This document shows, piece by piece, positions 22,226 through 52,800 of a stretch of 53,763 nt of DNA. The notes under the pieces are model-generated. The model saw only the letters and a program-made list of their open reading frames with translations, was not told the DNA's origin and ran no database searches. This DNA is from an uncultured Saprospirales bacterium (GTDB lineage Bacteria; Bacteroidota; Bacteroidia; Chitinophagales; Saprospiraceae), in assembly GCA_913061325.1 (NCBI GenBank), contig CAJXUU010000003.1:1-53763 (forward strand), read 5' to 3'. Each line of letters begins with the position of its first letter. Position 1 is the first letter of the stretch. A program made the position numbers and the translations under genes.

Positions 22226-22575
22226 TAACTAAGTAATTTTCTGTTTAGAAGATTTCCAAGAAGTAAGATCAATTCTTACTTCTGATATCCAACCTAGTTT
22301 GACACAAGTCAGCATAATGATGCTATGGAATAGAACCGCTATAGTAAATCAGCTCATAAGATTGTAATTATGTAAATAGACATTAGCATTAATGTTTAGG
22401 TTCTAAAATCCACTTTTACAATTAATAGCTCAAAGTTTCACTATAGGTAATTGGAACTAGACGAAGTCTCTAGTACGAAACTCCTATGTGCATATCTGAA
22501 GAGTATTCTGATTTACTGAAATTAATAAGTACTCCATCCGTAATAGGATATTTAATAAATCAGTAATTGGTTAAA
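22226..22575 (+). other. Long 5' leader of giant 2
   Basis: About 350 nt separate the predicted promoter from the ATG, with no credible coding region. The leader contains a perfect 8-bp hairpin GAAGTAAG / CTTACTTC (22260-22282) and a second hairpin built on ACTAGA / TCTAGT around a CGAAG loop (22456-22474). GTGCATATC at 22488-22496 and TAATAGGA shortly before the start codon recur in the leader of giant 3. A structured untranslated leader is plausible, but I recognise no known riboswitch. Confidence 0.4.
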
Positions 22576-25500: not shown

Positions 25501-28059
25501 GTAGCAAGAATGGATGACCCTGGATTCGAAGACTTTACAGGATTTGGACCAGAAATAGATATCACTTGTGCCGATGCTGGTCAAACAATAATGGTAGGAT
25601 TATTAGTAACGGATGCAGGCGGAAATACGAATATGTGTATGGTGTCTGTAGCAGTGAAAGATAAAGTAGAAGCACAGATGGTGTGCCCTATAGATACGAC
25701 AGTAGAATGTAATTTTGCATTCGATCCAGATAATCTAAGCGCATTCTTCGGCGAGGTTCAGATATATGATAATTGCCCAGCGGCGAATACCATAGATGAA
25801 ACTTTAGTAGGAGACCTAAATTCATGTGGAAGTGGTGTGTTGATTAGACAAATTACACTACTCAATGCACAAGGATTACAAACAGATTATTGTGAGCAGA
25901 CAATCACATTTGCAAATGGATCTCCTTTGGATTACAGTGATATCACACCTCCTAACTCACCAGTAGAAGTTACAGGATGTGGCATCGGAGCATTAGAAGA
26001 TGCAGATGTTAGAATGCCAATCATACCTGAAGGTGTTTGTCAACAAGTTGCGATATCTATTGATAATGATACGTTCCCATTCACAGACGAAGGAGCATGC
26101 CTTAAAATCATAAGAACATACAAAGTAATCGACTGGTGTATAACTGATGGATATGGTTCGGCGAGTGATCCATTCGAATTTGAGCAAATCATCAAAGTGA
26201 GTAACTCTGTGAAACCTACCTTTACGAATGTATTTGCAGATTCTACATATTGTAGTTTTGCAGGGGACTGTGGAGGAATAACTGTAATTGGATTAACAGC
26301 CACATCTTCGGATGATTGTACAGTTGATAGTGATTTGATCAGAAAGTACGAAACTAGAAATGCAGATGGAATAGTTGTGAAATTTGGCAACGGACATGAT
26401 GCGAGTGGAGATTATGAACTTGGAGACTTTACAGTAAGGTTTATAGCAGAAGACAAGTGTGGTAATCAACAAGTAACAGAATCTACATTCTCGATCATAA
26501 GTTGTAAGCAACCAGTACCATATTGTCTTGATGGCATAAGTACATCAATCACATTAATGGATCCAGATAATGATGGATCATTTGAATCGATGGTCATGTT
26601 GACTCCAGAATTCTTTGATGCAGGAAGTTATCATCCGTGTGATTTAGATGTAACACTAAGCTTCTCTTCGGATATTACAGACCAGCAAATCATATTTGAT
26701 TGTGGTGATATAGGAGAGCAAGAAGTTCAATTATGGGTAACAGATTCAAATGGAAATCAAGATTTCTGTATAGCTAGCCTTGATGTACAGGATACTGAAG
26801 GATTGTGTAACGGTCAAATGGAGCCAGTAGACATTCAAGGAAGAATCTACACACCTGCAGATGCTGAGTTGAACGAAGCAATAGTTCAATTAATCAGCGC
26901 AGAAATGCAAGAGAAAATGACTGATGAGAATGGCGAATACAGATTCATGGATATGCCACAAGGAGGCTACTACAGTGTAGTGCCACATAAAGATGATGAT
27001 GTACTTAACGGTGTATCTACACTTGATTTAGTAATGATTCAGAGACATATCCTAGGCATTGCAGAGTTAGATGAGGCATACAAATACATAGCTGCCGATA
27101 TCAATCATGATGATAGATTAACCGCTACTGATTTAGTAACACTTAGGAAAACAATCTTAGGGATCAATACTCATTTCACAAACAATACAAGTTGGAGGTT
27201 CATAGATGAGCAACATGTATTCGAAGATGAGACTGACCCATGGTCTGCACCATTCGCTGAATCTTATGATATCGAAGGATTGACTGAAGATATGTGGATA
27301 GACTTCGTAGCTGTGAAAGTAGGTGATATCAATGGCAATGTAGATGCAAATCTACAAGCTGGAATTATCTCTGAAACAAGAAGTGCTCAATCTTTGATCA
27401 TGACGCTTCCTAATACATATGTAGAAGAAGATAAAGTATACGAAATTGAAGTGCTCACATCAGATGCTATCAACCTGAGAGGATTACAAGTTGCCTTCTC
27501 TCTTAATGGATTAGAAATAGTAGAGATCAAGCAAGGATCAATGAATATCAAATCGAATGACTTCGTAACTACAGATAACGAACTAAAAATGAGTTATGCC
27601 AATGCAGTTGGTGACTATGCTCAAGCAGATGATGTCTTATACACACTTGTATTGAGAGCCAAATCAGATGGTCACCTTTCAGAAATGATAAGGATCGATG
27701 ATAAATCTCTAAATGCAGAAGCTTACTTAGGGTCAAATCTTAAAGTAGGATCTGTAGAAATCGAATGGAGAGATGATGAAGTAGTTGTGCCAGTAGAATT
27801 AATGGTTGTAGGTTCTGTATCACCAAATCCATGGAGATCTCAATCAGAAATCAATTTTGAGATTCCAAGAGAAGGATCGGTAAGCTTAACAGTACGAGAT
27901 GTAAGCGGAAGAGTAATATTTACTAATTCTGATTACTTCTCAGCCGGTAAGCAGTCATTCACTATTACAAATGATGATGTAAAAATTGCTGGTTTACTTC
28001 TCTATGAGTTGACTTTCGGAGATCAAGTAGTACATAAGAAAATGATCAGAATCGAGTAA
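22576..28059 (+). CDS. Giant secreted HYR-repeat protein with C-type lectin, dockerin/cohesin-like modules and T9SS tail (giant 2)
   Basis: The ATG at 22576 (1827 aa) is preferred to an upstream TTG because MKKTLTF opens the signal peptide, which ends near LLGQ. HYR modules repeat through the protein (motifs xxCPxDIT, TDNC, GLPAGSNFPVG, GNADTC). Residues about 303-437 form a C-type lectin-like domain (WEDANAASSSIGGHLVVIT ... FKWVNGEPFVYENWGDDQPG) that appears inserted inside a HYR module. The C-terminus holds a CarboxypepD_reg-like domain (about 1416-1475), a dockerin-like pair of EF-hand repeats (NGVSTLDLVMIQRHILG and AADINHDDRLTATDLV, about 1476-1533), a cohesin-like beta domain (about 1606-1733) and a T9SS tail (SPNPWRS, about 1743-1827). 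Inference: a calcium-binding surface protein with possible glycan binding. It is separated from its neighbours by terminators. Confidence 0.85.
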   Translation: MKKTLTFRILKVRSTKQVYALLLFCAFLVPNALLGQCIPEVTNFPIDITINDNDECTSIVTWTEPTYSINCDDFSESFDIANWALNANGQDGSVNTAGAPTAVSIFGSEDGPNNVNTNTDYCITIPFDGNINFDWTASVMPPPAGAQLRNDEPAYSIDGVETRLNVLGTPVGNNIMTESGSITSLAVTAGQEFCFRVRSNNRGAESTLDISSFSFEITQIEQTDGAALNSVQSIGDYVIEYTVPNCDGTTTECEFMVTVEESIDPVITCPMDITMNADIDRCTAVVCFDVEVTDNCDPILPVDIPGFEFLGTDDGHNYFVSSPFNALSWEDANAASSSIGGHLVVITSEDEQDFLSDNLDIGLYRIGLRYSPSLGEFKWVNGEPFVYENWGDDQPGGILEGDYVFNLDFNGSPIDGWYDAPPILPLRYIVEIETYQTELLAGLPAGSNFPVGITEVTYRGLDASGNADTCSFNVRVIDNQAPIIDCPMDSIVQLAAEQCDTIVTFDDPLFTDNCPDAIITQIAGLPSGSQFPIGENIISFEARDTTGNADTCTWSVIVNEYIPNGLLCNGEINFSIDEESCSGELLPSMLIDITSIGCADSCTITVKGADGIKRPAIFSTDDIGKTYEYEICCGGICCWGIVNVEFKFDPVIECVANDTLSCTQAFDESTIRPDISLSCAPATLLLIDEEIENLNCDTFFTAKMVRKYTAVDIYGNTSDTCEQTIFLRRTNLDSISPVQPFAIFNDEALSCSSGFATTNQGYPYPALSVTGAPRLRVKGGGFIDLYPFESALICNGFADYKDEIMTGSTSCVTKIIRTFTIGEWWCGSTNERTFKQLIEVVDFDGPDITCPANMTVSTGSFECAASVSFPLPTGEDACNNDLIYNIATPVGDIENYNGESFTLPAGLHTINYAVYDACEQGSFCSFTVTVVDNADPIAICDQFTEVSLSLETLTYVPAESIDDGSFDECGPVTLSVARMDDPGFEDFTGFGPEIDITCADAGQTIMVGLLVTDAGGNTNMCMVSVAVKDKVEAQMVCPIDTTVECNFAFDPDNLSAFFGEVQIYDNCPAANTIDETLVGDLNSCGSGVLIRQITLLNAQGLQTDYCEQTITFANGSPLDYSDITPPNSPVEVTGCGIGALEDADVRMPIIPEGVCQQVAISIDNDTFPFTDEGACLKIIRTYKVIDWCITDGYGSASDPFEFEQIIKVSNSVKPTFTNVFADSTYCSFAGDCGGITVIGLTATSSDDCTVDSDLIRKYETRNADGIVVKFGNGHDASGDYELGDFTVRFIAEDKCGNQQVTESTFSIISCKQPVPYCLDGISTSITLMDPDNDGSFESMVMLTPEFFDAGSYHPCDLDVTLSFSSDITDQQIIFDCGDIGEQEVQLWVTDSNGNQDFCIASLDVQDTEGLCNGQMEPVDIQGRIYTPADAELNEAIVQLISAEMQEKMTDENGEYRFMDMPQGGYYSVVPHKDDDVLNGVSTLDLVMIQRHILGIAELDEAYKYIAADINHDDRLTATDLVTLRKTILGINTHFTNNTSWRFIDEQHVFEDETDPWSAPFAESYDIEGLTEDMWIDFVAVKVGDINGNVDANLQAGIISETRSAQSLIMTLPNTYVEEDKVYEIEVLTSDAINLRGLQVAFSLNGLEIVEIKQGSMNIKSNDFVTTDNELKMSYANAVGDYAQADDVLYTLVLRAKSDGHLSEMIRIDDKSLNAEAYLGSNLKVGSVEIEWRDDEVVVPVELMVVGSVSPNPWRSQSEINFEIPREGSVSLTVRDVSGRVIFTNSDYFSAGKQSFTITNDDVKIAGLLLYELTFGDQVVHKKMIRIE

Positions 28060-31800: not shown

Positions 31801-34800
31801 CAGTAATTAACCTAATGGGTACCTATAACATTGGAACCATGGGTTTTGATGAAGGAAATAATATCACTTACACACCAGATCCTGGATTTGTTGGTTTAGA
31901 AACATTTGAATATAGAATTTGTGATTCCGATTGTCGATGTGATGTGGCAACAATCACTATTGATGTTCAAGCTGCCGGGCCAATGACAACACCAGATCCA
32001 ATTGGACCATTTAGTACATGTGAACCATTGTTGATAGATGTTCTTTTAAATGATACGGATCCAAATGGGGGAAGTTTGATTATTACGTCTGTTCAATCTA
32101 CTTTTATGGGAGCAAATCTATCAAATTTAGGAGCATTATTGGAAATAGTATCTACAGGCGGTATTCAAGTTGTTAGATATACTCCTCCATCCACCATTAC
32201 AAGTACAAATGATATGTTCACATATACAGTAGATAATGGATTTGGAACAGCAACAGAAACAGTGACTATAATAATAGATGCAAATTTATATGTGAATTTA
32301 CCCCCTACTCCTATGAATGATGTTGCAGAACCTATTATTGCTGGTGATGTAGCATATATTCCTATATTGAGTAATGATACAGACCCAGAAGGATATGATC
32401 TTGAAATTGGCTCTACAACAACTGATTTACTCAATTCTATAAACTTTAATAGTGCGTATACAGGCCCAGCATTAGTAGCAAATGATGTATTTAGCATAAG
32501 CCCAACAGGTCAAATAGGTTTTACACCGCCCTCAGGATATTTGGGTACAGTCACATTTATATATCAAGTTTGCGATATTCCTGATCCTGGTACTGGATGT
32601 GTCCAAACTCCAGAATGTAACACTGCAACCGTAGAAGTAGATGTATATAATCAAGCACCAATTGCATTTGAGGATAATACGTCTACTGGTACTGATCAAA
32701 TGATAGATATTTCAGCCTTAGAAAATGATACAGAACCAGATGGTAATCCATTTGACACTACAGGGATAATGGTAGGAGATGACATTAACCTAACTGGTAT
32801 GGGGTCTACAGCTTTAGGTGGAACTGTAGTTGTTAATGCAAATGGAACCATAAAATACACTCCACCTGTTGGAGTTTCTAATGTCACAGACATGTTTTTT
32901 TATAAAGTTTGTGATGAATTAGATGATACAGTAATTTCTTCTTCAGCAGCAATGGACTCTTCTAAATGTGACATTGCTTTAGTAACCATAGATATAACAG
33001 AACCTATTGATTTAAATGTAAACAAATCAGTTTCTCCATCTTTTATTTCTTCATTGCCTCAAAATATTATATATACAATTGTAGTTGAAAACTCAAGTAT
33101 ATCCGAAGCAACAAATATTAGTTTGGATGATGATTTACCTTCAGGAGTAGTTTTTGTAAGTGCATCTCCTTCTCAAGGATCATACGATGATGTTTCAGGA
33201 AGTTGGTTTGTAGGAACACTGACAGCCACAGATGGTTTATCTGGTGGCACGGATGAAGCTACCCTTGATTTAGTAGTGACGCTTAATGATGTAAATGACT
33301 CATATAATTTTGTTCAAGTAAACAATGCAGATCAATCCGATACTGACTCTTCTCCAAATAATAATATGTCAGGAACACCTGCCGAAGATGATGAATCTTC
33401 AGCATTAGTATTGGCAGATGCAGATTTAGCAATTGTAAAAGACAATGCGCAGACAGAATATACACCAGGAGATCCTGTAACCTATACTATTACAGTAACA
33501 AATAATGGTCTATTAGATGTAGTAGGAGCCACGGTAACGGATAATTTCCCTGCCATTTTATCAAATATAATGTGGACAGCAGTAGCCAATGGAAATGCTG
33601 CGATACAAGGAGCAGCGTCAGGCTCAAGTGATATCTTATCACTAGTAAATATAGAATCAGGACCCGGAAATTCAATTGTATTTACAGTTATAGCGGATAC
33701 AGACTCAGGTGCTTCAGGCAATTTAGTAAATACTGCAACAGTAGCAACTCCTGTTGGAGTTAATGATTCTGATCCTTTTAATAATACGTCAACCGATACA
33801 GATACACCTACTATAGTTTTTGCAGATCTAGGTATCGTAAAAGACAATGGCCAAACAGAATACACACCAGGAACATCGGTGACCTATACATTGACAGTAA
33901 CAAATGACGGACCATTAGATGTAGTAGGAGCAACAGTAGCCGATGTATTCCCATCAGAGTTATCAAATGTGATATGGAGTACAGCAGTTACAGGAAATGC
34001 ATCTGTACAAATACCAACATCTGGTGTAGGAGATATCTCATCATTGGTAGATATCGAAGCCGGAGCGGGTAACTTTATAGTATACAGCATCACAGCGGAT
34101 ATTTCTGCGAGTGCAACTGGAAACTTAGTAAATACAGCAACAGTAACAGCTCCAGTAGGAACAACAGATCCAGATCCAACTGATAATACGTCAACAGATA
34201 CGGATACTCCAAATCCGATAGCGGATATAGGTATCGTAAAAGACAATGGACAGACAACATATATACCAGGAACATCAGTGACTTATACAGTGACAGTAAG
34301 TAATGTTGGACCATCTGATGTAGTAGGTGCAGCAGTAGCAGATCTATTTCCATCATCATTATTAAATGCAATGTGGAGTACAGCAGCTACAGGAAATGCT
34401 TCTGTACAAGGAGCTACTACTGGCTCAGGAGATGTTTTTTCATTAGTAAATATCGAAGCGGGTGTTGGTAACTTCATAGTATATACCATCACCGGCGATA
34501 TTGATATGGGGGCAACAGGTAACTTAGTAAATACAGCAACAATAACAGCTCCAGTAGGAACAACAGATCCAGATCCAACTGATAATACATCAACGGATAC
34601 AGATACACCGGACCCAATGGCGGATTTAGGTATCGTAAAAGACAATGGCCAAACAGAATACACACCAGGAACATCGGTGACCTATACATTGACAGTCACA
34701 AACGACGGACCAACAGATGTAGTAGGAGCAACAGTAGCTGATATATTCCCATCAGAATTATCAAATGTGACGTGGACAACAGAAGCGACAGGAAATGCTT

Positions 34801-37800
34801 CTGTAGAAATACCAACATCTGGTGCTGGAGATATCTCATCATTGGTAGATATCGAAGCAGGAGCGGGTAACTTTATAGTGTATACCATCACAGCGGATAT
34901 TGCTGCAAGTGCAACAGGTAACTTAGTAAATACAGCAACAATAACAGCTCCAGTAGGAATAACAGATCCAGATCCATCTGATAATACATCAACAGATACA
35001 GATACACCGGACCCTATGGCAGATTTGGGTATCGTAAAAGATAATGGACAAACAATGTATACACCTGGAACATCGGTGACCTATACAGTAACAGTGACCA
35101 ATGATGGACCTACTGATGTAGTAGGAGCGGTAGTTACAGATAATATGCCAGCGGCCTTGTCAAATGTAATGTGGACAGCGGTGGCCAATGGTAGTGCCTC
35201 AATAGCAAATGCCTCAGGTTCTGGGAATATTTCAGAATTAGTAGACATAGAATCAGGCGCGGCAAATTCAGTAGTGTATACAATTACAGCTGATATTGCA
35301 GCTGGAGCGACAGGTGACTTGGTAAATACAGCGAACGTTACACCACCAGTAGGGACAACAGATCCTAATCCTACAAATGATATGTCAGCGGATACGGATA
35401 CACCAGATCCGATGGCTGATTTGGGTATAGCAAAAGACAATGGTCAAACGATGTATACACCGGGAACATCAGTGACTTATACAGTGACTGTAACCAATGA
35501 TGGACCATCTGATGTAGTAGGCGCAGCAGTTACAGATCTATTCCCGTCCGAATTATTAAATGCAATGTGGACAACAGCAGTTACCGGAAATGCCTCATTA
35601 CAAGGAGCAACAACAGGCTCTGGTGATGTCTTTTCATTAGTAGATATCGAAGCGGGTGCAGGTAATTCTATAATTTACTCTATCACAGGTGATATTGCAG
35701 CTGGGGCAACAGGTAATCTATCAAATACAGCAACAGTTACAGTACCAGTAGGAACTACAGATCCAGACCCATCTGATAATACATCAACGGATACGGACAC
35801 ACCAGACCCAATGGCGGATTTGGGTATTATAAAAGACAATGGACAGACTACATACGTAGCGGGAACATCAGTTACCTATACATTGACAGTAACAAACGAC
35901 GGACCAACAGATGCACTAGGAGCAACAGTAGCGGATATATTTCCATCAGAATTATCAAATGTGATGTGGACAACAGTAGCAACAGGAAATGCTTCATTAC
36001 AAGGAGCAACATTTGGTTCTGGAAATATTTCTTCCTTAGTAGATATCGAAGCTGGTGCGGGAAACTTTATCGTTTATACGATTACAGCCGATATTGATGC
36101 AAGTGCAACAGGTAACTTGGTGAATACAGCAACAGTTACAGTACCAGTAGGAACAACAGATCCAGATCCAACTGATAATACATCAACGGATACGGACACG
36201 CCAGACCCAATGGCGGATTTGGGTATCTTAAAAGATGATGGACAAACTGAATACAATCCAGGAACATCAGTTACCTATACGATTACAGTAACAAACGACG
36301 GACCATCTGATGTATTAGGAGCAACAGTAGCCGATATATTCCCATCAGAATTATCAAATGTGCTGTGGACAGCAGCAGCCAATGGTAATGCTTCAATAGC
36401 AAATGCCTCAGGTTCTGGGAATATTTCAGAATTAGTAGACATAGAATCAGGTGCAGCAAATTCAGTAGTGTATACAATTACAGCTGATATTGACCCTGCG
36501 GCAACTGCAGATTTGGTAAATACGGCAACCGTATCTACACCAGTAGGGACTACAGATCCAAACCCTTCAAATAATACTTCTACAGATATTGATACAGGAA
36601 TAATAACTAATCCTTCTATTCAGGTTACGAAAGCATTAACTGATCTAGAAGAACAAGCTAACGGAGATGTAAAACTGACTTTCGAATTGGAAGTTACTAA
36701 TACAGGAGATACTTATTTAGAAGATATTACGCTTACAGATCCATTATCTTTCATTCCAGCCGCTGATCCAGCTTCTCAGAATATTTCTGTGATAGTGAGC
36801 AATATTTCTGCTGATACACCTCCAACAGCAAATGATCCAGGGTATGATGGAGATAGCGATATTAATATACTTGTTGGTAATGATGGAGTAATGCAGCCTG
36901 GACAATCATTTACTGTGACACTCATGGTAGAAGTAAATCCGACTCTTTTCTCTATGCTACCACAGCCGGTTACAAACCAGGCGGATGCTGGTGGTATTCC
37001 AAATGATGTAGGAGGGAATGTTTATATTAATCCTTTGACAGGAGTACCATATGTAGCAGGTGAGGTTCAAGATCTTTCTGATGATATGACAACAGATAAT
37101 CCAGACGGAGGTACACCAGAAGATCCTACACCTATTATAATTCCAGGAAAAATTGACTTATCAAAACAACTTAATAGTATTGCAAATCCTGCAGTTAGTG
37201 GACTGGCAGGAAATGTAGATGCGTCATATACATTCAATATATGTAATACTGGAGGATCAAATATATCTGGTCTTAGTTTAGAGGATAATATTAATAATGA
37301 ATTTGGTAGTGGTTTTGTAGACATAACGACTTCTCCTGTAATAGGAGTAAGCACTGCAACCCTGGACCCTACAGTCTCAAACAGTTATACAGGATTTTCA
37401 CCTAATCTAAACATGCTAGTTGGCACAGATGGAGTACTTGCTCCAGGAGAATGTGTAAGTATTATGCTTACTGTAGAAATTGATTTGGATATGATGCCAG
37501 ATCCTGCAGAAAATCAAGCAACAGCAACTGCCAACGATGATGGTACTGGAGAGACAACTACCGACGACTCTGATAATGATGCACCTACAGGCACACCAAA
37601 CGGTGATACCACAGGTGACGATCCAGATGATCCTAATAGTGATGATGATGATCCAACACCATTCCCACCTACACCGTCAATTGATGTAGCAAAGAGTGTC
37701 AACACATTAAATAATTCGCCTACAAATGCAACAAGTTACTATGTAACCTACAGGCATGTAGTTCAAAATACTGGTAATACTGTATTAGAGAACTTAAGCT

Positions 37801-40800
37801 TGACAGATGATATCGTAACGATTTTATGTGGCGGATATGTAGGTACTACAAATATAAATGTACTTAATGTAGATGCAGATACACCCCCAACCTCAGCTGT
37901 TGCAACAACAGTTATGAATGGATTGAATGATGCATTGAATAATGATGGGCTGCTAAATCCAGGAGAATCATTCATTGTAGATATTACAGTAGAAATGGAT
38001 AATTCAATGACCACTTGTCCACAACCATTCCTTAACCAATCAACATCTGAAGGACTTCCTACAGATGGAGCGGGGACTCCTCTTGTAGATCCAGCTGATG
38101 GTATGGATTACATGGACGGAGATATAACAGATACCTCAGATAGTGGTACAGATGCTGATGGTGCTAACAATGGTGCGCCAAATGACACTGGTGGATATGA
38201 TGATCCAACACCTCTAAGCGTAGCTGGAATAATAGGAGTAGTGAAATCAATCACTTCGACTACCGTTGCTGCTAGCGGTATTGCAGGGAATTATGATGTA
38301 ACTCAAGTATTCTATATTGAGAATACCGATGGAAATAATATAATAAATATCCAATTGACAGATGATCTAGCTGTTCAATGGGGTAGCGCTTTTGTAGGTG
38401 TTACTACTGCGCCAGTTGTGACAACAGTTGGTGCTGATGGAGCTACAACAGACCCTACAGCAAATGCTGCATATGATGGAGTATTTGACGTTAATTTATT
38501 GAGTACTGACGGAGAGTTGTCACCAAGCGAATTTATTAGAGTAACACTAGTAACAGAAATCAATGCGAGTGAAGTAGGTACAAATGGACTTATGAATCAA
38601 GCAACAGTAACTGGTATCGATGAAAATGGTGCGATGCTAACAGATCTATCTGATGATAGTACTTCATCAGGATCGGCAAACGATGAAGATGCAGATGGAG
38701 ATAATCCAGGAGGAGCTGGAGATGATGGTGCTATGGGTACTAATAACCCTACACCATTACTCATACCTGAGATAAGTACGACCAAAGCTGTGATCAATAC
38801 TCAACCAGCAGCTAGTGGAACAATTGGAAATTATGACGTAACCTTTGAGTTCATACTTCAAAACACAGGTACTACAATACTTGAAGACATATTTTTGGAT
38901 GATGATTTTGCCATTCAATTAATACCGGCATTTGTAGGCGTTACAGTAGATGCAATAATTACTTCTTCAGGGGCATCTGAAGATCCAATAACTGGAACTG
39001 GCTCAATGTTACTTGCAGGTGACGGAACACTTCTACAAGGAGAATCTGTTACAGTACAAGTAGTTGTAGAGTTAGACGCAAGTATGGTTCCAGCAACAGG
39101 TTTAAGCAATCAAGCAACAGCGATAGGATCTCCGACTGATGGTATGGGTAATACCTTGCCAGATCCCAATGACCCTGCAGGTGTAACTCCACTAGGAGAT
39201 GTCAACGATTTATCAGATAGTGGACAAGATCCAGATGGAACAAATCCAGACGAGCCAGGAGATATGGGAACACCAGATGATCCAACACCAATAGTACTAC
39301 CAGGTGAAATAGCTTTAACAAAGACTTTATCATCAGTACCAGTACCTGCAACAAGTGGGTTGATAGGTAATTATGATGCTAGCTATACCTTTGAAATTTG
39401 TAATATAGGTGGTGTAGACTTAATAAATATAGACTTAGTAGATGATTTAAGTAGTGAGTTTGGCGCTGGATATGTGGGCGTTACGACTTCACCATCGGTT
39501 AGTTTAGCAGGAATAAATGTTAGTTTAGCGGATCCTACTGCCAATAGTGGATTTACAGGATATAGTCCAAATAATAATTTATTGAATGGAGATGGAGGCC
39601 TTGAAGTAGGCGAATGTATCGAAGTAAATATGACAATAGAGGTAGATGCAGGACTGATGCCAGATCCAGCATTTAATCAAGGAGAAGCGACAGGAGAAGA
39701 TCCGATGGGAGAAGACGTAAGTGATCTTTCAGATGATTCAACAGATTTAGATGGAGATATGACACCGGACAATGAGTCGGGCGGAGGAGATGATCCTACA
39801 GAATTCCCACCAATTCCTGAAATCAGTGTTACCAAGAATTTGGTAATGAATGAAGTGCAAGAAGATGGAGATGTTAAAATGACTTTTGATTTCATCATAG
39901 AGAATACGGGTAATACGTATTTAGATATGTTGACTTTAACAGATCCGCTATCGTTTTTACCAGCGGCAAATCCATCGAGTCAAAATATAACAGTAGCGGT
40001 AACAAACTTAAGTTCAGATTCAGCTCCGACTACAAATAGTGGAAGTTACAATGGGGTAGGTGACATAAATCTTACTTTAGGCACAGATGGATTAATGGGA
40101 CCAAACCAGCAGTACAAAGTTACGATGATGGTAGAGGTAAATCCAATAACATTTGCCTTGGTAATGCCACAGCCAGTAACAAATCAGGCAATAGCAAGTG
40201 GAATACCTACAGATGATATGGGTACACCAATCAACGATCCAACAACAGATGTGCCATATGCAATGCCAGTAATGGATACATCAGATGATGGAATAGATCC
40301 TAATACAGATAATCCAGGATTTCCGGGAGATATGGGTACTCCAGATGATCCTACACCAATAACATTACCAGGAGTAATAGCGGTAGAAAAGACATTGGTA
40401 ACAATAGTACCAGCTATTGCAGTAGGAAATGCCTTAGCTGACTACACTTTTGAAGTATGTAATATAGGTGGAGTGACCCTATCGAATCTAAATTTACTAG
40501 ATGGTTTAAGCAGTCAATTTGGAAGTGGTTTTGTAGGAGTAACTAGTGCACCTAGTATAACAGGAGGTACGACTACAGCGACAACAAATTCTGGATATAC
40601 AGGATTTTCTCCTAATGTAAATATGTTGAATAACAATGGCTTGCTTTTGGTCGGCAATTGCTTTACAGTAAGTTTACAGGTAGAGTTAGATATGGACATG
40701 TTGCCAGATCCAGCGGAGAATCAAGCTGAGGCAACAGGAGATGACCCTTTAGGAAATACAGTAACAGATCTATCAGATGATGCAACTGATATAGACGGAG

Positions 40801-43800
40801 ATACAATTCCAGATAATGAAACTGGTGGAGAGGATGATCCTACAGGACTTCCATTTTTCCCAAATATTCAAGTAGCAAAGAGTATAAATACAACAGTAGC
40901 TTCACCAATAGCGGATCACTATTATGTGACTTATAGACACGTAGTAGAGAATGTTGGAAATACAGTACTAGAAGAATTCATATTAACAGATAATATGATA
41001 ACAGCATTGCAAGGTGGATATGTTGGAACAATAGATATCAATGTGTTGACGGGAAGTCCAGCAGCGATGAACTTACCAGTAGCAAATGCGATGACGACTG
41101 TGATGGATGGGGTAAATAATTCATTAGATGGAATAAGTGGTTTACTCAATCCAGGAGAACAATTTATCGTAGATATTACAGTAGAAGTAGATGTAACAGC
41201 AATAATTGGAACACAGCCACTATTGAATCAATCGACTATAGAAGGGACACCAACAGATGGCTCAGGGGTAACATTAACAGCGCCAGATACAGGCGCTCCT
41301 TATATGACAGGAGATGTAACAGATATCTCAGATAGTGGAACAAACCCAGAGAGTAATAACCCTGGAGCACCTAATGATTCAGGAGGATCAGATGATCCGA
41401 CACCATTGAGTTTGCCAGGTCAAATAGGAGTAGTGAAAACTATTACAGGAACAACACCATCAGCAAGTGGTGTTTTAGGTAATTATGATGTTACAATAGA
41501 TTTTGTGATCGAGAATACTGGAAGTGTTAACTTGACGAACATAGATCTATCAGATATGCTTTCAGCTCAATGGGGAAGTGCATATGTGGGAGTAACCATA
41601 ACGCCAGTAATTACAGTAGCGGGAGGAGATGTGACAACAGCAGATCCAACGGTAAATGCGAGTTATAATGGTGATTTGGACAGTGAGATGTTAAATGGAG
41701 ATGGAGAATTATCACCGGATGAACAAATTACGGTGCAATTAGTAGTAGAAGTAGATGCAAGCGAGTCACCAGCGGTAGGATTAGAGAATCAAGCGACAGC
41801 GAGTGGATCAGACATATTGGGCAACGAAATTACAGACTTGTCAGATGATAATACAGGATCAACGGATCCAGCAGATCCAGATGGAGAGAATATGGATGGA
41901 GAAGGAAACACTCCAGGTGGGACGAATGACCCGACTCCATTATTGATACCAGAAATTAGAACAACAAAAGAAGTTGTAAACTTAACTCCTTCTGCAACGC
42001 CAGGAAATAGTTATTTAACCTTCTCTTTTGTTATAGAAAATACAGGAACAACACCACTTACCGATATTAGATTATCAGACGATATGGTGCAACAATTCAA
42101 TGATGCATGGGTGGGTGTTGTAACTAGTCCAATGATTATATCATCATCGGCGACCACAGATCCAGTCATGGACAATCCATGGAATGGAGGTAATGGAAAT
42201 GGATCAATATTTCAGTTTAGCGGAGACAATATGTTTAACAATAACACAGGGGTAATGTTACCTGGTGAAGTTGTAGTTGTAGAAGTTACCATTGAAGTGA
42301 TTAATCTTAATATTGATAATCCACAAACTAATAGAGCAAGGGTTAGAGGTGATGTGCCTGATGGAAATACAGTACAGGATAATTCAGATAGTGGAAATGA
42401 TCCAACAGGAACAAACCCGGATGAACCAGGAGATACAGGTGGACCAAATGATCCGACTCCAATACCTCCAATACCTTCAATTAATGTTGCTAAATCCATA
42501 AGTAATATTTCGAATGCATCAAGTGGAGTAGAAGGTAACTTTGATGTGGAATATACTTTTATAATCCAAAATACAGGTACTGCTACTTTAGATAATGTGA
42601 GTTTAATGGATGACATTCAGTCTCAAATTGGAGGAGCATTTATAAGTGTTATGAATGGACCAACTATTGATGGTGCAAGTACAGCTGCAGTTACTGGAGG
42701 ACCAAATGCTGCATATGCTGCATCAGGAATGCAAACAGAATTATTGGATTTGACTGGAGATTTAGAGAGATTAGAAACTATTGTAGTAACTGTAACAATT
42801 GAAATTGACCCAGATGCTGATGGTATAATTTATAACAGTGATTTTGAAATGGAGAATCAGGGTACTACTTCAGGAGATCCTCTTGATATCAATGGTGATC
42901 CATTGATAGGAGTTGATGGAAACCTCGTAGACCCAGTCACAGATGATTCAGATAATGGAATTGATGCAACGACAGATAATGGAGAAGGAGGATTTGACGA
43001 TCCAACACCTCTTCTATTACCAAGTATTGGAGTAGCTAAATCTATTGCAGAAGTTGTTGAAGCGTCAAGTGGAATTGAAGGTAACTTTGATGTTACCATT
43101 AAATACGTAGTAACAAATGCTGGAAATACAGTACTAGCGCATATAAGTTTAGTTGATAACATTATGGCACAATGGGGAACACCATTTATTGGTGTCACCA
43201 CTATGCCAAATATTACAACGAGCAACGTTTCAGTAGGGCCAAATGAAAATGCTGGTTATGCGGGTATTGCAGATTTATTAGTGCCTGCGATGACTGATAT
43301 GATGGAACCAGGACAATCGTTTATGGTAGAAATTACTGTGGAAGTAGATCCTAGTTTATCGGGAGGAATGACATTAATGAATCTAGCTACAACAATGGGA
43401 ACACCTTTAGATCCAGATGGAATTCCGATTCCAGGTGTAACAGTCACAGATGATTCAGATAATGGTGTAAATCCAACTGGAACAAATGAAGAGGGAGGAA
43501 GTGACGATCCTACACCACTTGATTTACCAAGTATTGGCTTAGCCAAAATGGGAGGCACGGCTGTTCCAGTAGTAGGGATGCCAGGCTTTTATGATATTGA
43601 TTATACATTTATAGTTGAAAATACAGGAAATATTGTTTTAAATGAAGTTTCACTAATAGATGACTTTGGTGGACAATTTGGTTCAGCATTTGTCGAAATC
43701 ACAAGTGCACCAATGATTACTGGAGGGACAGCAGCTGTACCAGGAGGCACAAACCTTGGGTATTTAGGACTTGCCGCTCCAAATAATGAAATGTTGAATG

Positions 43801-46800
43801 GAGCAGGTATTCTTGAGCCTCAAGAAAACATTATTATTAGTCTTACAGTTAGAGTAGATGCTACTGTTGTAAGTGACCCTAATAATTCATTGACAAATCA
43901 AGCATTAGCAACTGGTATTGACCCAGATGGGAATCCGGTAGAGGATGAATCTGATGATGGAAGCGATCCAGAAGGTGGAGATGATCCAACAACAACAACT
44001 TTACCTTGTTATACTGAAATTGTGTGTCCTTCTGTTGGAAGTGATATATTAGTTAGTAACGATTTAGGATGGTGTGCAGCAATTGTGAATCTTCCATTGA
44101 CAACTGTAAATTCAAATTGTGCAGGAGTTGATGATGGAGATGTTCAATATATGCTATCATTAGATGCTGTAAATCCAGCAACAAATATTACAGTGATAGC
44201 TAATACATGGATTACTGGTCAGCCAAGTGGGTTGATGTTTGCTGAAGGAACTACAACTATTACTTTTAGAATAGATCCTACAGCAATACCTGGAACAGCA
44301 ACAGTCGATCCAGCTACATGTGGATTTAATGTTACAGTTGTTGATAAACAAAATCCGACAGTTATCTGTCAGGATATTAATGTCTACCTAGATGCTAGTG
44401 GAACTGCAACAATTTCCGCAGCGGATATAGATGGTGGAACGACAGATAATTGCGATACACCAATATTAAATATCGATATATCAAATTTCGATTGTAGTAA
44501 CTTAGGATTAAACAGTGTAACACTTACAGCACAAGACAGTGAGGATAATATTGATTCTTGTGTTGCTTCAGTTTTTGTACTTGATATTATTCCACCAACT
44601 ATTCAAATGGTTGCTGAGAATGATACTGTTGATTGTGACGGGACTGGAAACTCAACTGATTTAGCAGCATGGTTAAGTAATAATGCTGGAGCGACGTTTA
44701 CAGATAATTGCCCTTCTGTAATTGAAACTTCTTATGTTTTAATTCAAGATACTAACCAATGTGGTCTAACGGGAGTAAATACATATTTATTTACAGTTCA
44801 AGATGGAAGCTCAAACTCGGTTAATTATGAAGCAAGTTTCATAATCCAAGATACATTAGCACCAACATTGACAGCGATGGCGATGCCTTTAGAGGTAGTA
44901 TGTGATGGCGATAATAATGTAACAGAGTTGTTAGATTGGTTGAATGATAATGGAGGCGCGACAGCTTCAGATATTTGTGGTACTGTAACATGGAGTAATG
45001 ACTATGGACAAGTAGATGCTGGCGCATGTCAAGGTACAGGCAGTATTACGGTTACGTTCACAGCGACGGATGCGTGTGGTAATTCTACACCGACAACAGC
45101 GACGTTGACGATATTGGATGAGGTAGCACCTTATTGGACGATAGATCCACAAGATGTAACCTTCGAGTGTAATGATAGCATTGATCCATTGATGCAGATC
45201 GAGACATGGTTGGGCGCACAAGGATTTGGAGATGCAGCGGATAGTTGTAGTGTAGTAACCTATTCTAATGATTATGTAGCATTAACACCAACATGTGGAG
45301 CGACAAGTAATGCAGGAACTGCGTTAGTGACATTCACGGCAACAGATGCGTGTGGAAATGCAACACCAAGAACAGCAACAGTAACAGTAGTTGATATGAC
45401 TGCACCGATCATCACATCTCCATCGATCGATGAGACAGTAGAGTGTGATGGAGGAGGAAATGCAGCGGAATTAGCGGCATGGTTAGCGATGAATGGCGGC
45501 GCGACAGTATTAGACATGTGTAGTGATACAACATGGAATACACCGATTTTACTAGAAACAATAGACAATTGTGGCGGAACACAAGAATTAATATATGCCT
45601 TCAGTGCACAAGATGCATGTGGAAATCAATCAGATACGACCATAGCGAGTTTCATAATAATAGATACGACATCACCGAGCATGGATACCGAAGCTATGGA
45701 TATGTCAATCAACTGTAATGGGACAGGAAATACAATGGATCTACAAACTTGGTTGGATGACAACGGAGGAGCGGAAGCATCAGATATCTGTGGAACAGTA
45801 TCATGGGAGTATGACTTGATCCAAGAAAGTGATCTATGTGATTTGACAGGAAGTGGCACGTACAGATTTACAGCTACAGATCAATGTGGCAACACAAGTA
45901 CGACAGAAGCAACCTTTGAGATCACAGATACAGAAGCACCGATGCTCACAGCAACAGCGATGGGTATAGAAGTAGTATGTGATGGAGATAATAACATTAC
46001 AGAATTACTAGATTGGTTGAACAGTAATGGAGGCGCAACGGCAACAGATAATTGTAACGATGTAACATGGAGTAATGACTATGGACAAGTAGATGCTGGC
46101 GCATGTCAAGGTACAGGCAGTATTACGGTTACGTTCACAGCGACGGATGCGTGTGGTAATTCTACACCGACAACAGCGACGTTGACGATATTGGATGAGG
46201 TAGCACCTTATTGGACGATAGATCCACAAGATGTAACCTTCGAGTGTAATGATAGCATTGATCCATTGATGCAGATCGAGACATGGTTGGGCGCACAAGG
46301 ATTTGGAGATGCAGCGGATAGTTGTAGTGTAGTAACCTATTCTAATGATTATGTAGCATTAACACCAACATGTGGAGCGACAAGTAATGCAGGAACTGCG
46401 TTAGTGACATTCACGGCAACAGATGCGTGTGGAAATGCAACACCAAGAACAGCAACAGTAACAGTGGTTGATCTGACGAAGCCAGATGTAAGTAATCCTG
46501 CTACTGATATGACAGTAGAATGTGACGGTGCTGGAAATACGAATGAACTCAATGCTTGGTTAGATGACTATGCAGGTGCATCATGGGATGACACTTGTGG
46601 AGATGTAACTCCAAATGATCCAATCCTACTGACTACAATAGAAGGATGTGGATTGACCAATGAGATGAGATATGCCTTTACGGCGACTGATCCATGTGGT
46701 AATGTATCTGATACTACTATAGGAATCTTCATTATAGAAGATACAACACCACCTACAATCAATCCTGATGCTATGGATATGACAGTGGAGTGTGATGGCA

Positions 46801-49800
46801 TAGGTAATGATACAGAGCTTGATACATGGTTAGATAATATGGCTTCAGCAGGTGCAACAGATGCATGTTCTAATGAAGCAATTATTGTAGAATGGGATCT
46901 TGTAACAGAAGAGGATTCTTGTGGAATTACGGGTATTCAGGAGTACAGATTCACATTTATTGATAATTGTGGAAATAGTAGCACAACTGAAGGGTCATTT
47001 ACAATAGAAGATACTACTCCTCCTGTAATCATGGGCGGAATGGACTACTTTGGCGAATGTGATCAATCTAATGCAAATAACGACGACGAGCTATTAAGTT
47101 GGTTAAATAATAGAGGTGGATCAACAGCAGAAGACATGTGCGGTTCTATCGTATGGTCAAATAACTATGACGTAGCTAACTTCGAAGACGGATGTAATGA
47201 CAGCAGAAGTATTGATGTAACATTCATTGCAACGGATGAATGCAGTAACGAATCTGAAATCACATTGAACTTCAGTACAGGTGACAATACGCCACCAGTA
47301 TTTACAAATTGTCCGAGACCACCAGTTATTGTGGATGCACCAGAAGGATGGTGTAGTGCATTTGTTAATTTCTCATTACCTCTAGCAACTGATAATTGCG
47401 GAGAGCCAATTGTAGAACAAACTGACAGTACTGGTTTCAGTACAGGTGATTTATTCCCTGTTGGACTTACGGTATTAGAATTTACGGCTACTGATTCTTG
47501 TGGAAACGAGACGATGTGCGAAATGAAGATTGTAGTTAATGATTTCCATACACCACCAACGATCACATGTCCTGCGGATGTAGAGACAGTAAGTGATCAA
47601 GGAGAGTGTGGAGTAGTAGTCAATAATATAGCACCAACGGCAGAAGATAACTGTCCTGATAATCTCGCCATCATATACGAGGTGAAAGATGAGTTCGGAG
47701 TGACAATCGAAGAAGGTATCGAAGATGCGAGTGGAACAGAATTTCCTGGAGGAACTAGTACGGTAACATATACAGTATTTGACCAACCGATCGTATTGAT
47801 CACAGAAGTATTGCAAGATGGTACGACATCAGGCATTGAGATTGGAAATCTTGGTCCTGCAACGATGGATATCACTTGTGCGACTGTGACTAGAATATCA
47901 GCAACAGATACAGTATCATTCATTCTACCGACTGGTACATCACTAGCGGTAGGGGATGTATACACGTATGACTTCCCAGATGCAATAGCGGCGGGCGAGC
48001 AAGCAACATATCAATTGTTATTCCTTGATCGAGTAGTTGACGAGTTGACGATCAATAATGGTCAGCTTGACGGTGAGAATATATTCAGAATAGACCCAGT
48101 AGACAATGATAATCCGTCAGACTGGATGGTAGCGAATGATTGTAGTCCAGGAAGTTATGGTACTTACAATCCTGAGTTGCCAATATTTACAGACAATGGC
48201 AGCAATGCATCGTTCCAAAGCGAAGCACCTAGTATGACACAATGTAGCTTTACAGTTACAGTGGTCGATATCGAAGCGCCGATGTGTGCTACCCAAGACA
48301 CGATGACATTCACCAATATGGCGATTGTTATCGAAGATGGTACATGCGCAATAAGCTCACAAGTAATCGTCGAAGCTGGAATTGTAGGAGATGTGAATAT
48401 TCAGGATTTCTTAGCGACGATAGATAATGCAGGAGCAATCACAGCATTACTCGAAAGTCCAGAAGGAACTGAAATTGTACTCTTTAGCGGATTGTGTGAT
48501 GGTACTGAGAATATCGATGTATCTATCGATGATCAAGCAGTCTCAAACATCCAAGGTGCAAGTTGTAGTCCACTAGGGAATGGAAATGCATACAAACCGA
48601 TGGATGCATTCAAAGCATTCTATGGTGAAGAAGCTGAAGGAATATGGACATTATCGGTCTTTGCTGATAGTCCTGTGACAGGTTCACTTAATAGTTGGAC
48701 ATTAGAAGTATTGACCAACGAAGCTTATGCTCAGATGGATACGATAATTTCGAATGATCCAACAGTATGTGAGGCAGAATTTACTTGGATACACCCAGTA
48801 TTCGTGGATAACTGTTGTGAAGGTTCGATGACGGTACAGTATGACTTCTCAAATGCAGTGACAGGTATTACGAGCACAGAGACTGATAATATTCTTACAG
48901 CAAGTGGATTCATCGATTTGGATGGAACAGAGGTGACAAGAACATTTGAAGTAGGTGTGACAGTAATCACTTATACACTGACTGACCTTGGAGGAATTGT
49001 AAGTTCATGTGGATTCACAGTGACGGTGAATGATGACGAGCCACCAATGTTCCCTGATGGGTGTGAAGACCTAACGATCTTCCTAGAACCAGGAGAATGT
49101 GAAGGTATGTTACCTTTTGCCAACATTCCTGATGTGACAGATAATTGTGGTGTTGATAGCATTGCTTATTTCCTCAATGGAGAGCAACTAGATATAGGTT
49201 ACATCCCTATCGGAGAAAATGCAGTGACACTTATAGCAACAGATATATATGGTAATATGGACAGCTGTACATTCAATTTGAACGTGGTAGAATTCATACC
49301 AGATAATAATACAATGTCTTGTAACAATTCGATCAACTTATCATTAGGTGTAGATTGTATAGCAATATTGACCGCAGATATGATACTCGAAGGAGGACCA
49401 TATAGATGTTATGATAACTATTGTATAGAAGTTACTACAGCTTCAGGTATAGTTGTAGATGCAACATTTGATATTACTGATGTTAATCAAACATTTACAG
49501 TAAGCATTACAGATTGTCTAGGTAGCGGTAATAGTTGTTGGGGTACAGTAACTATTGAAGAGAAACTTCTTCCAGAAATAGAATGTCCTGCAGATATCAA
49601 TTTGTCTTGTAATCAAGACCCTAACGAAAGGTTTGAAGATGGACATCCTCTAGCAGGACAATTAATCTCCGGTGAAGCTAGTCTTTTGACTTGTGAAGCA
49701 AATGCGACAATCACTTTTATTGATGATGTATTAGACGGAGGAGAATGTGGAGATCCTAGAGTTCAAATCTTGAGAAGATGGAGAGTAACTGATAATGCTG

Positions 49801-52800
49801 GCAACTCTGCTACGTGTGATCAGCTGATTACTGTCTTACCATACGATCCAGCGGATGTAGTGTTCCCAGGAGACTTTATTTTACAAGATGCATTTAGTTG
49901 TTCTTTAGTAGATACAAATCCTGAGATTATCCAACCTGATAGTACTGGAAAACCTACTTTAAGTGAACAATCAATATTTGGAAATAGCTACTGTGATATC
50001 AATATTAGTTTCTGGGATGAAATATTCCAAGACGCTAACTGTGTATCAGGATATGAGATCCATAGGCACTGGGGTATATCGAATGAATGTATGCCGATTG
50101 TGGATGGTGTAAATCCATTGAAGCATATCCAGAGAATAAAGGTGGGAGATATTTCAGCACCTACTTTATATGATCTCGATGATGTAACCTTGAGCACTAA
50201 CGTATGGGATTGTTTCGGAACATACGTATTGCCAGAAGTAGTACATGAAGATGATTGTAGTAATTATACTGTAAAGTGGAACGTGTCATATGGACAAGTG
50301 GATGAAGGGGTATTATATAATTTACTTCCAGGAGCAACAGAAGTAACTGCAAGAGTCACTGATGCCTGTGGCAATGTTGCTAATAGTTCGTTCATAATAA
50401 CTACATTGGATATTACCTCTCCAACAGCAATTGCTCTACAGAATATTGTTATCAGTTTGACATCATCTTCTGAGGCAGAAGGTTCTGCAAAGTTATACGC
50501 AGCAAGTGTTGACAATGGAAGTCATGATAATTGTGGTGATGTATGGGTTGAAATTAGAAGAGAGTCAGACGAATGTGAAGTTTCAGGAAATACTACTTAC
50601 AATGCTGATGGACACTTTAATGATGGTAGTTCGAATCCAAATAGTCCAAATTATGACTCAGATGGAGGCCAATTTGTTAAATTCTGTTGTGATGATATAT
50701 ACAATGCAACAGTTGACATTGACGAAGATGGTGTACTTGATCCAGGATATGTAAAAGTATGGATGCGTGTATGGGATGATGGTGATGGTGATGGAATCTA
50801 TGGATCAGAAGGAGATAACTTTAATGAAGCTTGGTCATTTGTAAAAGTGGAAGATAAGTTAGCACCTCAGATTACATGTCCGCCAGATGTGACAATCACT
50901 TGTGATATGGATAGAGAAGACCTCGATGTGGTAGGAGCTGCAACTGGCTTCGGGTCATGCGGACCAGCGGAGATCGAGTACAATGATATCATTGTTAATC
51001 TATCAACATGTAACGAAGGATTTATAAGAAGAAGATGGAGCATTGTTGGTAGGTCGGATATATTCTGCGATCAGAATATCGTAATTGAAGGTATAGAAAG
51101 TACGCCTGTATCTGTAAGTTTCTCACAAGTGGGTGACTTCACAGCAGAGGGATGTCCTGACAATATCGCAATTGGTGAACCAACTTGGTCTGGAAGTCCA
51201 TGTGATCAGATTGGATATACTGTTGAGACAGATACCTTCTTATTTGAAGATGGAGCTTGTTACAAATTATTGAATCACTACACTGTAATAAATTGGTGTA
51301 CTTACGATCCAAATGATGCAAATCCAATAGGTATTTGGGAACATACACAAGTAGTGAAAGTAACTGATAATACATTACCAGTTATTGAAGATTGTGAAGA
51401 TCAGATGTATGCCGTAAATGATCATGGCGATAGTGATGATGATGGAAATACATGTGAGGGTATGATCACCTTAGTAAATATTGCAACAGATCCGGGTAGT
51501 GAGAATTGTCCTACAGGATGGTTGAAGTGGCAAGTATTTGTTGATCTATGGGGAGACGGTACTAACGATTATGAGTTTAGTAGTTTCTTACCACCATTTG
51601 ATAATAACTTCAATGATTCTAACAATAATGGTATTCCAGATAAATTTGTGGCGCCAACAGCAAATGGAGAACAAGTAAGTATTCCATTGCCAGATATTGA
51701 AGGCAGCATGAGTAATCATAAAGTAACTTGGAAGGTAACTGATGGATGTCAAAATGTGACTTCTTGTAGCACCAACTTTATGGTTGTAGATAAGAAAGCA
51801 CCAACACCGTATTGTATTAATGTTAGTTCAGCTGTAATGGCGAGTAATGGTACATTAGACATTTGGGCTGTTGACTTCAATCTAGGTTCATTTGATAATT
51901 GTACAGCGGATGAAAATCTGAGATATACATTTACAGATGTTGCACCTGAAGATGATACTAGTTATGATGAAAGCAGAATGTCATCAAGTAGAGTTTTTAC
52001 ATGTGAAGACGTAGAAAATAGTCCTGTAGCGGTAATGATGTATGTTTGGGATGAGAAAGGGAATTACGATTTCTGTGAAGTTTATTTATCAATCTTGGAT
52101 AATGGAATTGCATGTGGGGAAGGGGCTACTATTGCTGGTAGATTAGCAAATGTAGAAGGAGAAGGTCTTGAAGATGTTGATGTTATACTTAATGCAATAC
52201 TACCAGAATATCCTAGAACTGGATATTCTGATGAGGATGGTATGTATACATTCTTAGGAGCTCCGATGTCGAACATTTATGAGATCACTGCCCAAAAGAA
52301 CAATGACTATACAAATGGAGTAAGTACATTAGATTTAGTGATGATCCAAAGACATATCTTAGGATTGGCTGAATTTGATTCTCCATACAAAATGGTAGCT
52401 GGAGATATAAACAGCGATGAGAAATTGAAAGCAAGTGATCTAGTTGAGTTGAGAAAGTTAATCTTAGGAGTGATCTTAGAACTGCCGAATAATGACAGTT
52501 GGAGGTTTATCGATCAAGATCAAACATTCACAGACATACTCGATCCATGGCCATTAGTTGAGTCTATAGAGTTAGAGACTACAGAAGATGATATGATGAA
52601 CAATGATTTTGTAGCTGTAAAAATTGGAGATGTAAATGGAAACGCTACAATGAATCTTACAGGGATAGCTCAAAGCGAAGTGAGAGGTGCACCGTTTGAA
52701 ATGTATTACAACGACAGAATAATTAATGAAGGCGAAGTTGTTGAATTAACAATACATGGTGATGAAAAAGCTGAATTGTATGGATATCAATTCACAATTG

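Follow-up and report, generated by a model that had tools for sequence, protein, structure and literature searches.

Nested, higher-order repetition of domains in the predicted stalk of a giant surface protein from an uncultured Saprospirales bacterium

The best-known super-repeats are those of muscle proteins, and the fibrillar-adhesin stalks built from DUF11 and DUF7507 domains are among the closest known systems in bacteria. The accessible text of PMC1553488 reports that domain repeats often expand several domains at once, with a super-repeat unit of seven domains in nebulin; that of PMC12617251 renames DUF11 as CLIPPER and DUF7507 as CLIPPER_2, describes an isopeptide bond resolved in a CLIPPER crystal, lists its Lys, Asp and Asn residues for both families and states that the two often alternate in tandem. 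In the main text of the latter paper the words "duplication" and "higher-order" do not occur, and limited literature searches found neither a published description of block repeats in CLIPPER_2 arrays nor any literature on DUF11 in Saprospiraceae. Here we describe an array of 14 CLIPPER_2-like modules in one giant open reading frame (ORF) of an uncultured Saprospirales bacterium (assembly GCA_913061325.1, contig CAJXUU010000003.1; the 53,763 nucleotides analysed are called the window). In our judgement, the array is likely to be a higher-order domain repeat of nested build, forming the stalk of a giant protein that the type IX secretion system (T9SS) exports, and to have grown by ordered-block copying of two alternating classes of modules.

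Order, pairing and age of the modules in the window

The array spans 36615-44006, and its modules of 159-186 aa are joined by acidic linkers (Table 1). The original prediction, which covered 36616-43020 (modules 1-12), held that a six-module block had been doubled at spacings of 3.18-3.22 kb. The measured distances from module i to i+6 are 3204, 3225, 3186, 3192, 3183 and 3171 bp for the six pairs it proposed (1-7 to 6-12), and the protein identities of these pairs are 58, 49, 60, 59, 48 and 36%, respectively. Mean identity reaches 48.3% at lag 6, against 29.6-38.9% at the eleven other lags (35.9% at lag 1), and in 200,000 shuffles of the module order this corresponded to p 8e-5 for lag 6 and p 0.0012 for the best of lags 1-8. 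Neighbouring modules share 28-45% identity, and modules at the same position are more alike than neighbours in five of the six pairs, all except 6-12. These values come from a module identity matrix, which took the place of a BLASTP self-comparison that returned no off-diagonal rows within the array, an effect, we think, of how the program handles self-hits.

A maximum-likelihood tree of the 14 modules joins modules that lie six apart for 1-7 (100/100), 3-9 (100/98) and 4-10 (87/95), and weakly for 5-11 (52/82), while the neighbours 12 and 13 also group (95/92). Pair 2-8 is blurred by module 6: the three form one clade (98/96), and module 8 is closer to 6 than to 2 (6-8 sisters, 88/85). The sixth pair, which had been proposed from its spacing with some doubt about subtype, was rejected by an approximately unbiased (AU) test (p 0.0008; eleven AU tests were made in total). 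The type order is thus A B C D E B A B C D E F F G and not six clean pairs. Order, spacing and tree agree that modules 1-5 recur as 7-11, but the repeated unit is not a clean six-module block, because module 6 shares the type of 2 and 8, and module 12 is no copy of 6. At the DNA level, module 6 with its upstream flank matches module 8 with its upstream flank, and this two-module copy at an offset of 1068 bp ties module 6 to module 8. The observation therefore holds for five of the six pairs at best, with four of them upheld (1-7, 3-9, 4-10 and, weakly, 5-11), and its interpretation holds partly, in its main point.

DNA self-comparison matched 37737-38487 to 40920-41678 (64%, offset 3183), and the five good pairs, all except 6-12, are 55-62% identical in DNA. 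An artefact of assembly in the window was rejected because these pairs are only that much alike. At residues shared between the copies, codons agree no more often than codon usage predicts at random (z -0.8 to 0.5 in the five pairs; 1.7 for 6-8 and 2.9 for 12-13), which indicates saturation of synonymous sites between the block copies. The earlier statement that the DNA is more diverged than the protein is not so in raw percent, although synonymous positions are saturated; the statement that the block is older than the DUF11 array of the same ORF is supported as a statement of divergence, since the 28 pairs of DUF11 units have a synonymous divergence (dS) of ~0.2-1.4 while the module pairs are saturated. 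Such divergence dates the last homogenisation of the arrays, not their origin.

Two other arrays in the same ORF carry block-like copies. At 34224-36593, DUF11 units 2-4 best match units 5-7 at a three-unit offset (83, 86 and 80% DNA identity), with the exception that unit 3 is closest to unit 1 (92%), a pattern in the alignments that suggests a three-unit block copy. In the HYR-like region, 44849-45731 and 45926-46808 form an 888-bp direct repeat (82% DNA identity, offset 1077), a younger block copy in which a long stretch looks identical in protein.

Two alternating classes and the Portibacter array

What the original prediction missed is a two-module order beneath the block, its occurrence in other genera and the likeness of the modules to the DUF7507/CLIPPER_2 family. 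A profile of the modules (E<=1e-8) matched 62 of 396 genomes of the order, and trees were built from 107 modules and from the immunoglobulin-like (Ig) cores of 70 modules in seven arrays. One clade, class X, was recovered in both (Shimodaira-Hasegawa-like approximate likelihood ratio support 92 with 107 modules; 83/81 and 85% of 200 bootstrap trees with the Ig cores). It contains window modules 2, 4, 6, 8 and 10 (types B and D, types A, C and E being non-X), modules 1, 3, 5 and 7 of an array in Portibacter, and modules of five further loci: 2, 4, 6, 8 and 10 of L088, 3, 5, 7 and 9 of L086, 3, 5 and 7 of L084, and 1, 3 and 5 of both L090 and L102. Class X thus occurs in the window and in six arrays of four other genera, and all seven arrays alternate across the stretch spanned by their X modules, with no X-X neighbours. 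The seven are not seven independent cases, since a single genus (g189) contributes L084, L086 and L088, with L090 and L102 coming from two others (g55 and g205, respectively). Type A is likewise one clade of 15 on the Ig cores (100/99), with members in the window, Portibacter, g189, g55 and g205, and a four-module order A-X-Z-X can be read in g189, g55 and g205.

A younger parallel for block copying was found within g189. In L088 of genome G607, A-X-Z-X is repeated so that four pairs of modules lying four apart share 90-96% protein identity, and the four-module copy is 81% identical in DNA over 3170 bp; this assembly consists of 1070 contigs, which may contribute to the pattern. This offset recurs in genome G594, also of g189, with 69% DNA identity over 1129 bp. 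It could be argued that modules were duplicated singly and that the order arose a second time through selection for position-specific types, as in a ruler-like stalk, and types are indeed kept across genera at alternating places, as the A and X clades show. We consider this very improbable: the lag-6 order is hard to obtain by chance, the copies are homologous type by type, and the G607 copies, with the caution due to their assembly, suggest copying of blocks.

To see how widely alternation extends, we surveyed 19 arrays of at least five contiguous modules, taken from 77 loci and the window, the loci being chosen by match and not at random. Even lags exceeded odd lags in 15 of the 19, significantly (p<0.05) in six (the window, L044, L062, L086, L088 and L128), which represent three kinships: the window with Portibacter, g189 and G017. 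Among arrays of at least six modules the excess was present in 14 of 17, and lag 2 exceeded lag 1 in 14 of the 19 (p<0.05 in 4). A smaller, earlier count had given 11 of 13. No even-lag excess was seen in L061, L089, L098 and L108, and it amounted to only 0.2 points in L083 and L094; alternation in all relatives was rejected, as four arrays run the opposite way. As a tentative generalisation that may well prove wrong, many CLIPPER_2 stalks of Saprospirales might share a hidden X/non-X alternation older than the genera and grow only by even numbers of modules (2, 4 or 6), because the X/non-X step would be a structural unit of the stalk.

The even-lag pattern may also have been selected, in that unlike neighbours would avoid cross-folding or X and non-X modules would fit end to end, an explanation that we regard as quite possible though short of probable. 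Neighbours in the window are just 28-45% identical, X-X neighbours are absent inside the seven alternating arrays, and the accessible text of PMC4660218 and PMC8201768 proposes that neighbours diverge to avoid misfolding, and that of PMC1553488 considers that selection against aggregation might contribute. However, neighbouring DUF11 units of the same protein reach 63-79% identity, which speaks against a strict rule of neighbour difference, several arrays of the family lack alternation, and recombination between modules of one class would yield the same pattern without selection.

The relative age of the block was read from Portibacter. Among 398 genomes of the family, with at most 8 candidates scored per genome, a type-C profile gave matches at E below 1e-100 in the window's own genome and in G068, while none of the remaining genomes came under 1e-25; a scan of named genomes gave one locus, in Portibacter lacus YM8-076 (NZ_JAJNKA010000001.1), which NCBI classifies in Haliscomenobacteraceae, Saprospirales. 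As far as the contig shows, for the frame runs off its end, this array has ten modules, nine in the order B A B A' B C D E F and then a tenth, followed by other repeats. Portibacter modules 5, 6, 7 and 8 are sisters of window modules 2, 3, 4 and 5 (100/97, 95/82, 94/91 and 96/90), with window modules 8-11 outside. Pairing of the window copies to the exclusion of Portibacter was rejected by AU tests for B (p 0.0001) and D (p 0.017), as was a grouping of 2, 6 and 8 without Portibacter (p 0.0002), and at residues that distinguish the window copies Portibacter favours block 1 by 57:9 (B), 40:15 (C) and 66:16 (E). Duplication in the window lineage after the Portibacter split is disfavoured by the tree, the AU tests and the distinguishing residues. 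Because the single B-C-D-E series of Portibacter sits with the first window copy, the block duplication probably predates the split of the two arrays and was followed by local exchange. Orthology by place between window modules 6-7-8 and Portibacter modules 1-2-3 was neither shown nor rejected (AU p 0.175, 0.219 and 0.116); for window module 1 the values were 0.063 with Portibacter module 4 and 0.257 with module 2.

We therefore propose the following course of events. The ancestral array would have alternated X modules (B, D) with non-X modules (A, C, E), and an ordered stretch would have been copied by unequal recombination between modules of the same class before the window and Portibacter arrays separated. 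Later, modules 6 and 8 may have been exchanged or copied at a two-module offset, modules 12-13 would have arisen locally and module 11 would have lost an insertion, while Portibacter, to the extent that its contig covers the array, would have kept a single C-D-E series. Arrays would in general grow and shrink through recombination between modules alike enough to pair; these belong to the same class, so that shifts would occur in even steps and whole ordered blocks would be copied.

Several observations weigh against this proposal. The block is present in two copies only within the 14 modules, and module 5, besides its weak grouping with 11 (52/82), has module 10 as its top partner (49%). Window-only pairing was not rejected for C (AU p 0.18) or E (p 0.22), the distinguishing residues of D are split 24:27, and on Ig cores Portibacter D groups with window module 10 (93/71), not with 4; these results for C, E and D lower our confidence somewhat. 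A stretch of Portibacter D resembles block 2 (p 0.017 in one of the four modules tested), which is only suggestive of a mosaic of both window copies. Type A departs from the Portibacter pattern, in that modules 1 and 7 group together and leave Portibacter A outside (92/91). Alternation is not general, being significant in 6 of 19 arrays, and the 5916-aa frame of L061 (G025:C100), with 33 contiguous modules, has no even-lag pattern. BLASTP between the window and Portibacter frames (E<=1e-4) matched only the array region and not the N-terminus; the array has therefore been joined to different partner regions, and the block may have moved between genes.

This last result also bears on the idea that two genes or arrays, each with an A-B-C-D-E series, were joined by recombination, the blocks then being paralogues and not a tandem duplication. 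Arrays do appear to move between proteins, and the Portibacter order B-A-B-A'-B-C-D-E-F differs from that of the window. Nevertheless, the six spacings are alike (3171-3225 bp), and the type-C profile had no match in the window's genome outside the ORF among the 8 of 30 candidates scored, so that we regard joining as unlikely and retain tandem copying of an ordered block.

Fold of the modules and the host protein

The DUF7507/CLIPPER_2 model PF24346 (gathering score 27 bits) scored 203.8 bits over the whole array, and DUF7507 was matched at E<=0.01 in 22 of 23 modules (14 from the window and 9 from Portibacter). When window modules 1-10 were scanned singly, modules 1, 5, 7 and 10 passed 27 bits and the other six scored 15.7-25.3. 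Every one of the 14 window modules carries K6, D42 and N121, and we predict these to be the isopeptide-bond residues, from their conservation and from their spacing in comparison with Table 1 of PMC12617251. Across the 70 modules of the seven arrays, K is kept in 68 and N in all 70; at the middle position 52 modules have D and 18 have E, and 13 of those with E belong to class X. In 13 of 18 class X modules of g189, g55 and g205 (L084, L086, L088, L090 and L102), Glu thus aligns at the place expected for the catalytic Asp of the bond. The Glu residues inspected precede a D, and the alignment may be displaced there by one residue.

AlphaFold2 modelled module 10 as beta strands with one eight-residue helix (mean predicted local distance difference test, pLDDT, 82.6), the acidic tail being poorly predicted (residues 144-168 below 50), and modules 9-10 jointly with pLDDT 82.2 and a predicted template modelling score (pTM) of 0.71. 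In VIA-align, the module 10 model gave Z 10.4 with a TRAP subunit, 9.8 with SpaD pilin and 9.7 with BcpA, and Z 8.6 with CLIPPER 9ifr (root-mean-square deviation 3.1 over 119 residues); matches to integrin, AP2 mu2 and macroglobulin folds were set aside as common sandwich likeness. A search of PDB sequences with the module profile gave no match at E<=0.1. The models thus predict DUF7507/CLIPPER_2-like Ig sandwiches. In the linkers of modules 6 and 8 (39690-39818 and 40740-40862) there is a D-x-D-G-D-x-x-P-D-N stretch, which we take to resemble thrombospondin type 3 calcium loops.

From N- to C-terminus, the ORF encodes a hydrophobic N-terminus, kelch-like and Big_9 regions, the DUF11 array and the 14 modules, which are followed by an HYR-like array and, last, the sorting domain for the T9SS. 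The C-terminal domain scored 30.1 bits with TIGR04183 (cut-off 23), which marks the protein as T9SS cargo, and 19.3 bits with PF18962, below the cut-off of 27. The protein may accordingly function as a stalk or adhesin, in which Ig beads would be stapled by predicted intramolecular isopeptide bonds, spaced by acidic linkers and exported by the type IX route. Ahead of the T9SS tail, 52300-52485 holds two stretches that are presumably dockerin-like in motif; no dockerin family was among the domain-search matches at E<=0.01. Giant repeat proteins adjoin one another in the window, where a 1839-aa ORF with eight DUF11 matches (16446-21965) is followed by an 1830-aa ORF (22567-28059).

Table 1. Features of the host ORF and its repeat arrays (positions in the window)
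Feature	Position	Strand	Type and relation	Basis
ORF, 8177 aa	28824..53357	+	Giant surface protein	ORF listing, domain searches
Additional DUF11 match	33009-33368	+	Ahead of the eight-unit array	
DUF11 (CLIPPER) array	33423..36593	+	Eight ~399-bp units directly 5' of the modules	
Module 1	36615..37148	+	Type A; partner 7	Identity matrix, tree
Module 2	37149..37676	+	Type B, class X; groups with 6 and 8	Identity matrix, trees
Module 3	37677..38228	+	Type C; partner 9	Identity matrix, tree
Module 4	38229..38768	+	Type D, class X; partner 10	Identity matrix, trees
Module 5	38769..39305	+	Type E; weak partner 11	Identity matrix, trees
Module 6	39306..39818	+	Type B, class X; closest to 8, not 12	Identity matrix, tree, DNA self-comparison, AU test
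Module 7	39819..40373	+	Type A	Identity matrix, tree
Module 8	40374..40862	+	Type B, class X	Identity matrix, trees
Module 9	40863..41420	+	Type C	Identity matrix, tree
Module 10	41421..41951	+	Type D, class X; modelled singly and with 9	Identity matrix, trees, models
Module 11	41952..42476	+	Type E; without the insertion found in module 5	Identity matrix, tree
Module 12	42477..43022	+	Type F; closest in window to 13; groups with Portibacter module 9 on Ig cores	
Module 13	43023..43529	+	Type F	Identity matrix, tree
Module 14	43530..44006	+	Array end	Identity matrix, tree
Local two-module repeat	39212-39809 and 40280-40853	+	67% DNA identity, offset 1068 bp	

Comparison with known systems

The window offers a bacterial stalk of the predicted isopeptide type in which repeats are nested. 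The alternating pair, the smallest unit, is common to several genera, and blocks differ in age, with six modules and saturated synonymous sites in the window and four modules at 81% DNA identity in G607. This suggests that stalks can grow by ordered sets of domains and not by single domains, and provides a natural series for asking whether blocks grow from recombination between like modules or because neighbours must differ. Like the fibrillar-adhesin stalks of DUF7507/CLIPPER_2 and DUF11/CLIPPER, the array consists of predicted Ig-like sandwiches with Lys, Asp and Asn in tandem in a long surface protein; it differs in its 159-186-aa modules and acidic linkers, in that only 4 of the 10 window modules scanned singly reach the Pfam cut-off, and in that the alternation is one of two clades within a single family, built into four- and six-module blocks. 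In the super-repeats of the titin A-band and of nebulin, modules that hold equivalent places in consecutive blocks likewise resemble each other more than neighbours do, but there the blocks occur in more than two copies and the domain families are unrelated to those of the window, whereas the window array is bacterial, with two block copies and 48-60% identity between them. Finally, the periscope proteins (SasG, Rib and Sgo_0707), in the accessible text of PMC8201768, are also bacterial surface stalks of tandem domains; their neighbouring domains are highly similar, in contrast to the 28-45% identity between neighbours in the window, which sets this array apart from them.

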